From Carnobacterium inhibens subsp. inhibens DSM 13024 (GTDB taxonomy: Bacteria > Bacillota > Bacilli > Lactobacillales > Carnobacteriaceae), in NCBI RefSeq assembly GCF_000746825.1, contig NZ_JQIV01000006.1:248001-312000 (forward strand): a stretch of 64,000 nucleotides of DNA, read 5' to 3'. Shown piece after piece: positions 58,177 through 64,000 of this stretch (position 1 is its first letter; each line of letters begins with the position of its first letter). The translations under genes and the position numbers were made by a program. The notes under the pieces were generated by a model. The model ran no database searches, was not told the DNA's origin, and worked only from the letters and a program-made list of their open reading frames with translations.

Positions 58177-61100
58177 ATGAAATGGAGTATACCTGAACGC
58201 GTTATTGAGCAAGGAAGACAATATGTTGCAGAAAAACGTGTCCTTTCAGTCAACTCAAATTTTGATAAGAAAATATGGTCTGCCGAAGTTATGGGCAGTG
58301 ATATTTTTCATGTTGAATTAGATGGATCAACAAAAGAAGATGATTTTTGTGAATGTTTATATTGGAAAAATCATGGTTATTGTAAACATACTGTTGCGGT
58401 TGAATTAGAGCTTAGAGACCGAAAAATCAGCCGAGTGATGACAGCTGAGAATGCTAAAAAAGTAGCAGTGGATTCTCCAAATCCAGGCCAAGAATTAACA
58501 GAATCATTCACACGTATATTTTTAAATGAAAATAGAAAAATGGCTGTAACAGCTAAACAAAAACAGTCACTGAAATTAGAATACAGAATAGAAATCAAGC
58601 CGATGACTACTGCACTGATAAGAACTTCTTTTGACGTGTTGGCTTTAAGCCTTAAAGCTGGTAGTGATAAAATGTATATTATAAAAGATCTGCCTTTGTT
58701 TTTAGAAAGTTTTATCAAAAAAGAAACACTTGAATTAAAAGCAGGTCAAGAAATCAACTTTAAAGATATTTTTCTTGAAGAAGAAGATCGTGATATCCTA
58801 ACAAGTTTATATAAACAATATAAATCAATCCAATTGATTTCTGGAGAGCATAAAGATGCTAAATCATTATTGACTAATAACCGTTATTTGGTACTAATGA
58901 CTGCTCTAGCAGAAAATACGATTCAAGATTTACAAGATAGTGGCAATTTAACCTTTGTTACGAAAGACGATACCTATAAAACGATGATGTTTGTCGAAGG
59001 GAAAATGCCTTTTTCGTTTGAGATTTTTCAAAAGAACAACACAATTACTCTGTCTATTACGGGTTTAGCAGATAGTCACTTAAAAGAATATGATTGGTTT
59101 GTTTCAGACAATATTGTCTTTCAACCTAATTTAGAACAAATGCGTGCTTATCGTCCGCTGCAACAATTTTTACAACGTTTTGGTGGCGACAATATTGTGA
59201 TTGAACCTGCTGATATGCCGGACTTTACTGCTTATGTAATGCCATTGCTCGTAAAAATCGGAAATGTCTCAATTGATGATCAACTGAAAGATTCTTTCGT
59301 TCAAGAACCTTTATTAACATCTGTTTATTTTGAGTACCATAATGAGGCGGTACACGCTACTGTGGAATTTAATTATAAACACATGATTCTATCTACTGAT
59401 CCTTCTAAAAATCAGTTGTCCGAAGAAGGCGTACAAATTATCAGAGATAGTGAAAAAGAAATGAAAATTATTAATCAATTAAATGAATTTGATTATCATC
59501 GGACAGAAACCAACTATACGAAACGAATGGTTCGAGATGACGAATTCTACAACTTGTTTACAAAAGAAATTCCAACTTTAGAGTTAGATGCAACCGTTTA
59601 TGTAGATGATTTATTAGACAGTATGTTTTTAAATCAAATTGATCCTGAGACCATTATTGATGTTCAAAATGAAGGCTCTTTGTTAGATGTTCGTTTTGAC
59701 ATTAAAGGGATCACTCCAGAAGAAGTAGATGATGTATTAAGAAGTTTGGTCGAAAAGAAAGCTTTCCATAAATTTGATAATGGAACGATTCTTTCGTTAG
59801 AATCAGAAAGTTTTAAACAAGTTAGTGATGTTTTAAATGAATTGAGAGTGACCAAGAAATTTCAAAATGGCGGAATTCAATTGCCGAGTTATCGAGGATT
59901 AGAATTGAACGAAAAGTTCGCTATGGATGAAAAAACAAAAGGAACGGTATCCAAAAAATTCAAAAACCTCATTCATGATCTGAATTTCCCAGAAGAATTT
60001 GAGGCTGCGGTTCCTAAGACTTTGAAAGCAGAATTAAGACCCTATCAAGTAACTGGGTTTCAGTGGTTGAAGATGTTGTCTAAATATGGATTTGGCGGTA
60101 TTTTAGCTGATGATATGGGACTTGGGAAAACCATTCAGGTCATTACGTATATACTATCTGAAATAGAAGAAAAAGGACAAAATGATCCTTTCTTAATTGT
60201 TGCTCCAGCTTCATTGATCTACAATTGGCATTTTGAGATTGAAAAATTTGCACCATCGATCGAAAGTATAGTGGTTTCAGGTACAGCTGAGGAAAGAATG
60301 CAGTTAGTTGGAAATGTTAAACCAAATCAAGTCTTGATTACGTCTTATCCTAGTTTTAGACAGGACGTGGAATATTACAAGCAGGCTTCTTTTAGTACAC
60401 TTATTTTAGATGAGTCGCAAATGGTGAAAAATCATAACACTAAAACATCACAAGCTTTGAGAGACTTATCCATAAAGAAACGATTTGCCTTAAGTGGTAC
60501 ACCTATTGAAAATAAAATCGAAGAGTTATGGGCAATTTTCCAATTGATCATGCCTGGATTTTTCCCTTCTATCAAAAAGTTTAAAACTTTACCAAATGAA
60601 CAAATTGCAAAAATGATTCGTCCATTTGTCTTAAGACGTATCAAAAAAGAAGTACTGAAAGAATTACCGAATAAAATTGAAACTAACTTATATAGTCAAA
60701 TGACTAAAGAACAAAAAACGGTCTATCTTGCTTACTTGCAACGAATCCAAGAAAGTGTCAATAGCATGGATGGGGCAGAGTTCAAAAAGAATCGAATTGA
60801 GATTTTGGCTGGATTAACTCGTCTAAGACAAATCTGTTGTGATCCTAAGTTGTTTATTGATGATTACGAAGGCGACTCGGGTAAATTAGAACAGTTGAAA
60901 GAAACAATTCAAACAGCTAGAGAAAATGGAAGACGGATTTTGATCTTTTCTCAATTTACTTCTATGCTTGCCATTATTGAAAAAGAACTGGCAGAACAAG
61001 AAGTGGATACTTTCTATTTAAGTGGACAAACCAAACCAAAAGAGCGTATTGAAATGGTCAATAAATTCAACGCTGGAGAAAAAGATGTTTTTCTTATCTC

Positions 61101-61404
61101 ACTTAAAGCTGGTGGGACTGGATTAAACCTTACGGGTGCCGATATGGTTATCCTTTACGATTTATGGTGGAACCCAGCAGTGGAAGAACAAGCCGCTGGT
61201 AGAGCACACAGAATCGGACAGAAAAAAGTTGTTCAAGTTTTACGCTTGATTGCTGAAGGAACCATTGAAGAAAAAATCGATCAATTGCAACAAGAGAAAA
61301 AAGCGTTGTTTGATCAAATTATTACTGAAGACGGATCTATCCAAAGAGAAGGAAGCCAGTTATCGGAAGATGATATTCGTGAAATTTTAAGTATAGGGAT
61401 GTAA
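58177..61404 (+). CDS. SNF2-family helicase with SWIM zinc finger
   Basis: A 1075-residue Swi2/Snf2 ATPase. An N-terminal SWIM finger has C58-x-C60-x8-C69-x-H71. A middle region (about 100-560) resembles the SNF2-associated domain of bacterial homologues such as YwqA. The motor has motif I DDMGLGKT (about 645), motif Ia VAPASLIYNW, motif II LDESQ (an unusual DESQ instead of DEAQ/DEGH, about 744), motif III LSGTPIEN, and motifs V-VI LKAGGTGLNLTGADMVI and AAGRAHRIGQ. It likely remodels RNA polymerase or DNA-protein complexes. RBS is GTAGGGG. It is monocistronic, upstream of rpsB. Confidence 0.93.
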   Translation: MKWSIPERVIEQGRQYVAEKRVLSVNSNFDKKIWSAEVMGSDIFHVELDGSTKEDDFCECLYWKNHGYCKHTVAVELELRDRKISRVMTAENAKKVAVDSPNPGQELTESFTRIFLNENRKMAVTAKQKQSLKLEYRIEIKPMTTALIRTSFDVLALSLKAGSDKMYIIKDLPLFLESFIKKETLELKAGQEINFKDIFLEEEDRDILTSLYKQYKSIQLISGEHKDAKSLLTNNRYLVLMTALAENTIQDLQDSGNLTFVTKDDTYKTMMFVEGKMPFSFEIFQKNNTITLSITGLADSHLKEYDWFVSDNIVFQPNLEQMRAYRPLQQFLQRFGGDNIVIEPADMPDFTAYVMPLLVKIGNVSIDDQLKDSFVQEPLLTSVYFEYHNEAVHATVEFNYKHMILSTDPSKNQLSEEGVQIIRDSEKEMKIINQLNEFDYHRTETNYTKRMVRDDEFYNLFTKEIPTLELDATVYVDDLLDSMFLNQIDPETIIDVQNEGSLLDVRFDIKGITPEEVDDVLRSLVEKKAFHKFDNGTILSLESESFKQVSDVLNELRVTKKFQNGGIQLPSYRGLELNEKFAMDEKTKGTVSKKFKNLIHDLNFPEEFEAAVPKTLKAELRPYQVTGFQWLKMLSKYGFGGILADDMGLGKTIQVITYILSEIEEKGQNDPFLIVAPASLIYNWHFEIEKFAPSIESIVVSGTAEERMQLVGNVKPNQVLITSYPSFRQDVEYYKQASFSTLILDESQMVKNHNTKTSQALRDLSIKKRFALSGTPIENKIEELWAIFQLIMPGFFPSIKKFKTLPNEQIAKMIRPFVLRRIKKEVLKELPNKIETNLYSQMTKEQKTVYLAYLQRIQESVNSMDGAEFKKNRIEILAGLTRLRQICCDPKLFIDDYEGDSGKLEQLKETIQTARENGRRILIFSQFTSMLAIIEKELAEQEVDTFYLSGQTKPKERIEMVNKFNAGEKDVFLISLKAGGTGLNLTGADMVILYDLWWNPAVEEQAAGRAHRIGQKKVVQVLRLIAEGTIEEKIDQLQQEKKALFDQIITEDGSIQREGSQLSEDDIREILSIGM

Positions 61405-61429
61405 AATAATAAAAAAACGTTAGTTAGTG

Positions 61430-61458
61430 TTGATATTTTCATTAAAATCATATATACT
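61430..61458 (+). promoter_or_regulatory. Promoter of rpsB-tsf
   Basis: TTGATA (61430-61435), 17 nt, TATACT (61453-61458). The predicted transcript starts about 61465, giving a 130-nt leader. Confidence 0.9.
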
Positions 61459-61465
61459 AATTAAC

Positions 61466-61552
61466 GGTGCTAAAAGCACTAAAAAAATTATTTCACACTT
61501 CAAAGGATGTAAAGGACGGTGCTTGATTTTTTCAAGTCTCCTTACAGTTGAA
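61466..61552 (+). promoter_or_regulatory. Structured leader of rpsB
   Basis: Hairpin 1: GTGCT (61467-61471) / AGCAC (61475-61479). Hairpin 2, long and interrupted: TTCAA (61499-61503), TGTAA, GGA and CTTGA pair in order with TCAAG, TCC, TTACA and TTGAA (ending 61552). The octamer ACGGTGCT occurs in both (61464-61471 and 61516-61523), so the AGCAC of hairpin 1 can pair with either copy. The SD is about 30 nt downstream. Probable ribosomal-protein autoregulation site; the ligand (S2) is an inference. Confidence 0.65.
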
Positions 61553-61593
61553 TTTGAAGGAGGAAAATAAAAAACCAATGGAGGAAACATATT

Positions 61594-62382
61594 ATGGCAG
61601 TAATTTCTATGAAACAATTGCTTGAAGCAGGAGTTCATTTTGGTCACCAAACACGTCGTTGGAACCCAAAAATGTCTCGTTATATCTTTACAGAAAGAAA
61701 CGGTATCTACATCATTGACTTACAAAAAACGGTTAAGTTAGCTGATACTGCATACAACTACATGAAAGAAGTATCTGAAAATGGCGGAATCGCTTTATTC
61801 GTTGGTACTAAAAAACAAGCACAAGAAGCTATCAAAGATGAAGCAACTCGTGCTGGACAATACTTTGTAAACCACCGTTGGTTAGGTGGAACATTAACTA
61901 ACTGGGATACAATCCAAAAACGTATCAAACGTTTGAAAGCTATCAACAAAATGGAAGAAGACGGAACTTTTGAAGTCCTTCCTAAAAAAGAAGTTGGGAT
62001 CTTGATCAAACAACGTGACCGTCTTGAAAAATTCTTAGGTGGGATCCAAGATATGCCTAGAATTCCAGATGTAATGTTCGTTGTTGACCCTCGTAAAGAA
62101 CGTATTGCAATCCAAGAAGCACACAAATTAAACATTCCAGTAGTAGCAATGGTTGATACTAACTGTGACCCAGATGAAATCGATGTTATCATCCCATCAA
62201 ACGATGACGCTATCCGCGCTGTTAAATTGATTACTTCTAAAATGGCTGATGCTATGATCGAAGGAAACCAAGGTGAAGATGAAGTCGTTGAAGAAACTTT
62301 CACAGCTGAAGCTCCAGAAGCTTCTGAAACTGCTTCAATTGAAGAAATCGTTGAAGTCGTTGAAGGAAACAACGCTGAATAA
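61594..62382 (+). CDS. rpsB: Ribosomal protein S2
   Basis: Small-subunit protein that joins late and helps bind S1-type proteins. The 262-residue protein has the family start [63 protein letters not shown] and [24 protein letters not shown], and an acidic C-terminal tail of about 35 residues. GGAGGA precedes ATG 61594. The leader is structured. tsf follows after 172 nt containing a long hairpin. Confidence 0.98.
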
Positions 62383-62406
62383 TCAATTTTATTACTAACA
62401 CTATTT

Positions 62407-62490
62407 AAGGCTGTCTCGAGTAGGGAGAAGTGAGAAGCGACTTTTTACGAAGCGGCGTCATTTCTTTCTTGACGAGTCAGCCTTTTTTTT
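62407..62490 (+). terminator. Long hairpin between rpsB and tsf
   Basis: AAGGCTG-T-CTCG at the 5' foot (62407 on) pairs with CGAG-T-CAGCCTT (62473-62484), followed by a T run. Inside, GAAGTGA pairs with TCATTTC. It is a terminator by form but much longer (84 nt) than the others here, and it sits inside the rpsB-tsf operon, so it may act as an attenuator. Confidence 0.8.
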
Positions 62491-62554
62491 GTAAAAGAAT
62501 AGTTAAAACAAAAATCGAATAACGAATAATGTAACTTATAGGAGGAAATATAGA

Positions 62555-63436
62555 ATGGCAAAAGTAACAGCTCAACTAGTTAAACAATTACGTGACATGA
62601 CCGGCGTAGGAATGATGGATGCTAAAAAAGCATTGGTTGCTGTTGATGGCGACATCGATGCTGCAGTTGACCACTTAAGAGAAACAGGTATGGCAAAAGC
62701 TGCTAAAAAAGCTGGACGTATCGCTGCTGAAGGATTAGCTGGCGTTTATGTTGATGGAAATGTTGGTTCTATTACAGAAATCAACTCTGAAACTGACTTT
62801 GTTTCTAAAAACAACCAATTCATAAAATTAGTTAAAGATGTAACTGAAGCAATTGCTGAAGGAAATCCTGAAACAGTTGCAGATGCTCAATCTATTAAAG
62901 CTGGAGACGGTACTGTAGAAACTGAAATTTTAGCAGCAGTAACTAAAATCGGTGAAAAAATCGAATTACGTCGTTTTGCACGTGTCGAAAAAACTGATGC
63001 AGACGTTTTTGGAGCATACACTCACATGGGCGGACGTATTGCAGTATTAGTTACTCTTGAAGGAACAACTGATGAAGATGTTGCTCGTGATATTGCTATG
63101 CATATCGCAGCTATCAATCCTAAATATGTTTCTCGTGACCAAGTTTCTCAAGAAGAAATCGATCACGAAACAAAAGTATTAACTGAACAAGCATTAAACG
63201 AAGGCAAACCAGCTAATATCGTTGAAAAAATGATCCAAGGACGTTTGAACAAATATTTAGCTGAAATTTCTTTAGTAGACCAACCATTTGTAAAAGATCC
63301 AGATCAAACAGTTGGAAAATACATTGAATCAAAAGGCGCTGTAGTTAAATCATTTGTTCGCTTTGAAGTTGGCGAAGGAATTGAAAAACGTGAAGAGAAC
63401 TTTGCTGAAGAAGTTATGAATCAAGTTAATAAATAA
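62555..63436 (+). CDS. tsf: Elongation factor Ts
   Basis: Guanine nucleotide exchange factor that recycles EF-Tu. The 293-residue protein has the N-terminal UBA-like domain with the EF-Tu-contacting motif [12 protein letters not shown], the core [12 protein letters not shown] with the conserved TDFV segment, LRRFARVEK, and [23 protein letters not shown] precedes ATG 62555. Order rpsB-tsf-pyrH is universal in this group. Terminated at 63452-63482. Confidence 0.98.
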
Positions 63437-63451
63437 ACGGATTTCAATTTG

Positions 63452-63482
63452 AAAAGGGACGCAGCAGTTGCGTCCCTTTTTT
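63452..63482 (+). terminator. Terminator of tsf
   Basis: AAAAGGGACGCA (63452-63463) / TGCGTCCCTTTT (63469-63480), loop GCAGT, then T. Confidence 0.96.
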
Positions 63483-63625
63483 ACTAGCGTTTTTCAGAAA
63501 CACTCACTTTTAAGGGTTATGAAAAAAAGACAGATTTTAGTGTATCTCAACTTTTTGCTACATAGTAGTCTTATTAGCCAAACCAGTATAAGAGATATCT
63601 TTTAAATGAAGTTTTTGTTTGAGTA

Positions 63626-63634
63626 TGGTAAAAT
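63626..63634 (+). promoter_or_regulatory. Extended -10 promoter of pyrH
   Basis: TGG-TAAAAT (63626-63634), 36 nt before the ATG, no clear -35. Same core as at 17524 and 23460. Confidence 0.6.
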
Positions 63635-63669
63635 AATAAAAGTGAACGAGCCAATGGAGGGAAAGACAA

Positions 63670-64000
63670 ATGATTGAACCAAAATACAAACGTGTCGTTT
63701 TAAAACTAAGCGGAGAAGCCTTAGCAGGTGATACTGGATTTGGAATAAAACCACCAACAATAAAAGAAATTTGTAAAGAAATAAAAGAAGTAAAAGAATT
63801 AGGTGTAGAAATTGCTATTGTCGTTGGAGGCGGAAATATTTGGCGCGGTCAAGTTGGTTCTGAAATGGGAATGGAACGTGCTCAAGCAGATTACATGGGA
63901 ATGCTGGCTACAGTAATGAACGCTTTAGCATTGCAAGACTGTCTTGAAAATGAAGGAGTACCAACGCGTGTACAAACATCCATCGAAATGCGTCAAATTG
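63670..64000 (+). CDS. pyrH: UMP kinase, N-terminal part (cut by window edge)
   Basis: Phosphorylates UMP to UDP; amino acid kinase fold, hexameric, usually activated by GTP and inhibited by UTP. The first 110 residues are visible: [16 protein letters not shown] with the phosphate-binding KLSGEAL, the glycine loop [10 protein letters not shown], and [29 protein letters not shown] precedes ATG 63670. It follows tsf after a terminator and has its own promoter. The reading frame is open to the right edge. Confidence 0.97.

Follow-up and report, generated by a model that had tools for sequence, protein, structure and literature searches.

The window analyzed here, a stretch of 64,000 nucleotides from the genome of Carnobacterium inhibens subsp. 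inhibens DSM 13024, carries on its forward strand rpsB, encoding ribosomal protein S2 (61594-62382; an open reading frame supported by tblastn with relatives), followed by an open reading frame at 62555-63436 that, judging from its sequence, we take to be tsf, encoding elongation factor Ts. All features described below lie on the same strand, among them the rpsB Shine-Dalgarno sequence GGAGG, recognized from the sequence at 61580-61584. Upstream of rpsB, the octamer ACGGTGCT occurs twice, at 61464-61471 (copy 1) and 61516-61523 (copy 2), just as the original prediction for this locus had it. In dinucleotide-preserving shuffles of 61420-61593, some 8-mer of any composition was repeated in 1210 of 5000 sequences, whereas a repeat with at least five G/C and both copies within 60 nt appeared in only 4 of 5000.

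A consensus scan placed a promoter-like site at 61430-61458, with TTGATA (61430-61435) and TATACT (61453-61458) 17 nt apart and 10 of 12 positions matching. The scan found 9 sites overall against 6.8 expected, and this was the top-scoring one upstream of rpsB. Transcription of the leader is predicted to start at about 61465-61466, so that one or two bases at the beginning of copy 1 probably remain untranscribed and the repeat in the RNA is reduced to GGUGCU. From this predicted start, copy 1 would form the 5' end of the rpsB mRNA, its GG serving as the presumed initiating nucleotides. Among 209 leaders examined for the motif G[GT]T[GA], 60 had none near the start; in 129 of the other 149 it begins 6-7 nt past the -10 element, the spacing expected of a transcription start. 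In this count no bonus was given for a G following the -10 element; the selection of -10 elements for the 5'-hairpin analysis did include such a bonus.

Folding predicted a hairpin 1 at 61466-61480 and a long hairpin at 61498-61559. The two hairpins proposed originally were thus recovered, with a z-score of -2.5 for the leader (equally good folds in 3 of 200 shuffles) and of -4.0 for hairpin 1 by itself (2 of 200 as good). Hairpin 1, called P0 below, would stand at the very 5' end of the transcript; copy 1 supplies its 5' strand, and AGCAC (61475-61479) the 3' strand opposite, an assignment already made in the original prediction and supported by the fold. Directly 5' of the long stem lies a CACAC element (61494-61498). 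The stem, P1, begins with P1a (61498-61504, partner 61553-61559, pair probabilities of at least 0.92), is interrupted by an internal loop with GGAU (61505-61508) on its 5' side and GUUGAA (61547-61552) on its 3' side, and continues with P1b (61508-61516, with a bulged A at 61513, partner 61539-61546). Only the A and the final CU of copy 2 are helix-paired in this fold. Its CGGUG is unpaired between P1b and the apical hairpin P3 (61522-61536, pair probabilities of at least 0.98), with GGUG (61518-61521) looping out between the two helices as the junction strand. The helices P1b and P1a are completed by 3' strands that, together with the loop sequence separating them, span 61539-61559. A Shine-Dalgarno-like GGAGG (61559-61563) stands right behind P1a, and ACC (61574-61576) is found three bases ahead of the rpsB Shine-Dalgarno sequence. 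The second GGAGG lies 16 nt before the latter, where a decoy or standby site is conceivable.

The upstream regions of rpsB were compared in a wider sample, for which 219 loci were taken; L251 was lost when its start codon was not found, leaving 218 leaders from 80 Bacilli loci and 138 loci of order and phylum genomes, the window's own included. Parsing succeeded for 215 (not for L155, L156 and L177), and 202 were kept after removal of those in which the CAC element was not recognized (L151, L152, L164, L173, L201, L252) or in which the junction, the CAC element or the -10 element was misplaced (L088, L136, L140, L227, L232, L255, L256). The junctions of L056, L062, L224 and L235 were shifted by hand to a downstream GTTGCC. 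Since T[GA]C in the junction was a requirement of the parser, the complete conservation of U and C at this site follows from the method itself. The leaders are not independent, 28 of the 202 being of streptococcal type. With exceptions, the leaders have a common architecture: a start-site hairpin, CACAC or a variant, P1a, the internal loop, P1b, a junction NNUGCY, P3, the 3' strands, a GGAG-like stretch (GGAG in 135 of 202; GGAG or GAGG in 178), an A-rich linker with AC(C), and the Shine-Dalgarno sequence.

An alignment of 42 of the 80 Bacilli leaders, without streptococci, near-duplicates or any member of the window's genus, gave the covariance model R1. All 15 consensus pairs, seven in P1a and eight in P1b, show double (compensatory) changes. 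CACA of the CACAC element, which is present in E. coli too, is invariant across the alignment, and the A and U of the internal loop and the GA opposite are invariant or nearly so. R1 matched the window at 61490-61585 (75.3 bits, E 4e-17), its single match in that genome (next best E 2.5), and thereby bears out the structured rpsB-tsf leader that had been proposed. Across the phylum, with E up to 0.001 as the limit, it matched 87 of the 101 genomes sampled, a lower bound given the strict filters; 14 gave no match under these settings. The five matches compared by eye (G168, G228, G143, G218, G201) are found upstream of rpsB, no more than 60 nt away.

A pairing of copy 2 with the linker ahead of the Shine-Dalgarno sequence would require both sites to change together. 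Among the 202 leaders, ACC was found with 136 of 146 GGU junctions, with 0 of 17 AGU junctions and with 0 of 37 GUU junctions; ACU was found with 15 of the 17 AGU junctions and elsewhere in 9 of 146 GGU and 5 of 37 GUU leaders. For GUU junctions, the informative point is this absence of ACC, AAC being uninformative because the GGU leaders, too, have it in their linkers (151 of 151). The AGU/ACU combination occurs in Lactococcus (L051), several Lactobacillaceae (e.g. L070, L071, L077, L103), family f8 (L198) and three families outside the order (L157 and L159; L160, L161 and L170; L165). Being spread over several families, it probably arose more than once. Exceptions to the pairing are L057 and L172 (AGU with ACA), L174 (UGU without ACA) and the 10 GGU leaders without ACC, among them L054 (Weissella), L228 and L236. 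The pseudoknot comprises only three pairs. This covariation establishes copy 2 as the junction strand, with its GGU pairing with ACC before the ribosome binding site.

Copy 1 proved to be conserved in another manner, as judged from the same leaders: it is kept as a hairpin, not as a sequence. P0 has at least four pairs in 196 of 202 leaders, with a mean of 5.36 pairs against 3.70 in mononucleotide shuffles, and its 5' arm takes 84 different sequences. Two copies of the complete octamer are present in 6 of 218 leaders, five from the window's genus and L126. Of the 202 leaders, 36 repeat the NNUGC of their junction at the 5' end, and 113 repeat NNUG. Copy 1 mostly did not follow changes in the junction, the streptococcal group excepted. 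GGUG is retained beside a GUU junction in Trichococcus (L044-L046), L192, L208 and L257, and AGUG stands at both sites in one of the 17 AGU leaders (L221). The doubled octamer is accounted for by two separate features and is no conserved switch, and P0 probably acts as a shield of the 5' end or as a folding aid. In family f1 (L009, L133, L134 and others), P0 was seen to vary by compensating pairs (GGUGU/ACACC; GGUAU/AUACC in L129) beside a junction that stays GGUGCU.

The element is the rpsB (S2) leader in its Firmicutes form, a described type known as the "rpsB motif", on the evidence of its sequence and predicted structure; this settles whether the leader matches an S2 leader of a described kind, on which the original prediction had offered no view. 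According to the sections of Meyer et al. 2009 (PMC2704228) that describe it, the motif is found in Proteobacteria, Cyanobacteria and "some Firmicutes" and consists of P1, a junction and a pseudoknot, which in Firmicutes has three pairs, with P2 absent or very short. The window leader shares with it the position upstream of rpsB, a long P1 with covariation, a junction strand that pairs with the 3' extension past P1, and the three-pair pseudoknot; P1 and P3 are present and P2 is absent. A start-site hairpin goes unmentioned in those sections. In the E. coli rpsB leader (t44, gene tff; Rfam RF00127), the elements run CACACACG, P1, GGGGUGCC junction, P3, P1', GUGGAGG and ACCCC, the same order as in the Bacilli leaders. 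It differs in missing their AU/GA internal loop and in allowing a five-pair pseudoknot.

Searches against leader families, as the original prediction had suggested, failed with Rfam and succeeded with R1. The t44 model gave no match in 60000-64000 of the window at E up to 10, and the 8 Rfam matches obtained there, none of them a ribosomal-protein leader, were taken as chance. Its gathering cut-off was reached in none of 59 relatives' genomes; seven sub-threshold matches in these lay directly upstream of rpsB (G023, G041, G036, G030, G043) or elsewhere (G010, G003). Among 15 Bacilli loci, t44 reached L108 (29.0 bits) and L084 (26.5 bits), both under the cut-off of 44, and 0 of 20 loci matched at the gathering cut-off. 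R1 itself matched the E. coli leader with 23.0 bits (E 0.0016, such model E-values being rough). Among published surveys, the 20 r-leaders of Eckert et al. 2020 (PMC7247131) are likewise ribosomal-protein leaders found by comparative genomics; we noticed no S2 leader in Table 1 of that paper, where rpsB is listed solely as an additional gene under an L13 leader of Bacteroidia. Beyond Meyer et al. 2009, no rpsB leader for Lactobacillales or Bacillus was recognized in the literature searched.

The architecture that the leader has in common with that of E. coli makes autoregulation of rpsB-tsf by S2 the natural reading, by analogy. In E. coli, S2 represses rpsB-tsf via the leader with the help of S1, the details being described as unclear in the relevant part of a review (PMC10931766). 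We consider it likely that the window carries a Firmicutes S2 leader in which the GGU-ACC pseudoknot of the junction, stabilized by S2, blocks ribosome entry, with copy 1 as a strand of the separate hairpin P0. The long stem, made of P1a, the internal loop with its conserved AU and GA, and P1b, carries the unpaired GGUG junction and the apical P3, and the GGU-ACC pseudoknot, as the covariation shows, ties this fold to the ribosome binding site. Extrapolating from E. coli, S2 present in excess over 30S subunits would most likely bind and stabilize the pseudoknotted fold, which would keep 30S subunits off the Shine-Dalgarno sequence and so block translation of rpsB-tsf. P0 may protect or order the 5' end.

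The original prediction had read the doubled octamer as a two-state switch, in which AGCAC gives up its pairing with copy 1 in hairpin 1, captures copy 2 and opens the long hairpin, with S2 plausibly picking the state. The window does offer a six-pair alternative (AGCACU with GGUGCU), but forcing this exchange cost 6.2 kcal/mol in a nested fold and its pair probability was 0.0, from a program blind to pseudoknots. A check for preserved double copies in relatives, proposed together with the switch, returned the 6 doubled leaders among 218 given above: only one copy of the octamer is conserved, which the original prediction itself had named as speaking against exchange. A looser measure speaks in part for exchange: counting five-pair helices between the whole 5' region and the 8 nt around the junction, and taking foreign junctions for the expectation, GGU leaders had a mild excess (61 of 146 against 37.4) and GUU leaders a larger one (23 of 37 against 4.4), 21 of the 23 being streptococcal and the others L049 and L176; AGU leaders had no excess (2 of 17 against 2.4). 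The 3' arm of hairpin 1 makes at most 4 pairs with the junction in the 17 AGU leaders and at most 3 in the 9 non-streptococcal GUU leaders, and copy 1 remains GGUG beside the GUU junctions listed above. In the comparison of own with foreign junctions, exchange fails outside the streptococcal group; we reject it as a general mechanism and regard the two-state switch as improbable. Pairing of CACAC with the junction was also tried, brought no gain and was rejected: with CACAC included, five-pair helices were possible in 64 of 146 GGU leaders (43.0 expected), 23 of 37 GUU leaders (13.1) and 2 of 17 AGU leaders (3.1).

Both copies changing together is clear in the streptococcal group only. This group comprises 28 leaders with ACUCAU in place of CACAC, all with a GUUGCC junction and some with GUCG at the 5' end; GUUG stands at both sites in 10 of 28, and 25 could form an exchange helix of 4-5 pairs. 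Exchange confined to single lineages has a low probability. It is similarly doubtful that P0 acts as a competitor in some lineages, its 5' strand mimicking the junction (GGUG in many Bacilli; GUUG or GUCG in Streptococcus) and its opening either pairing with the ACC or AAC by the Shine-Dalgarno sequence or freeing an arm that captures the junction, so that the switch would be encoded at the transcription start. A different alternative is that the leader is structured and independent of S2, serving constitutive translation or mRNA stability, with the 5' hairpin acting against exonucleases and the long stem and upstream GGAGG forming a standby site. The generality of the 5'-terminal hairpin and the frequency of GGAG or GAGG behind P1 speak for this, as does the report for S. 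aureus, in the relevant part of PMC4608709, that RNase Y governs rpsB mRNA decay, with one site within the rpsB coding region. The element order is nevertheless constant from E. coli to distant Firmicutes, which better fits a shared protein ligand, S2 in E. coli, and we consider S2 independence unlikely, if less so than the exchange readings. A meaningless chance match of the octamers, with hairpin 1 incidental, is the least credible explanation. The full repeat is indeed limited to the window's genus and L126, but its rarity in shuffles led us to reject chance, and both sites are conserved features independently, with covariation in each that already makes chance unlikely.

Some streptococcal-type leaders (L056, L062, L079, L224, L240 and others) have a start-site hairpin and a junction that co-changed, to GUUGC and GUUGCC. 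The excluded leader L256, with GUUGC at the 5' end and GUUC in the junction, is a possible second case of co-change.

The leader is real, well conserved and of a known type, and its novelty is modest. New are the finding of it in most of the phylum genomes that were sampled, which Rfam's t44 model does not reach, and two parts of its structure, the hairpin at the start site and an internal loop whose AU and GA are conserved and which E. coli lacks. With the identity of the leader settled and the pairs for mutation named (GGU and ACC), an action of S2 through a pseudoknot by the ribosome binding site becomes testable in bacteria far from E. coli.

Two further hairpins were observed around tsf. 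The one 3' of the gene (63451-63481) is strong and terminator-like (-20 kcal/mol, z -4.4). The consensus scan did not report it, for which a T run lying within the stem may be the reason. The other, between rpsB and tsf (62407-62484), is long and imperfectly paired, with a T run on its 3' side (-36.2 kcal/mol, z -4.0), and is present as a single copy in the genome; it resembles the leaky rpsB-tsf terminator reported for S. aureus (PMC4608709).
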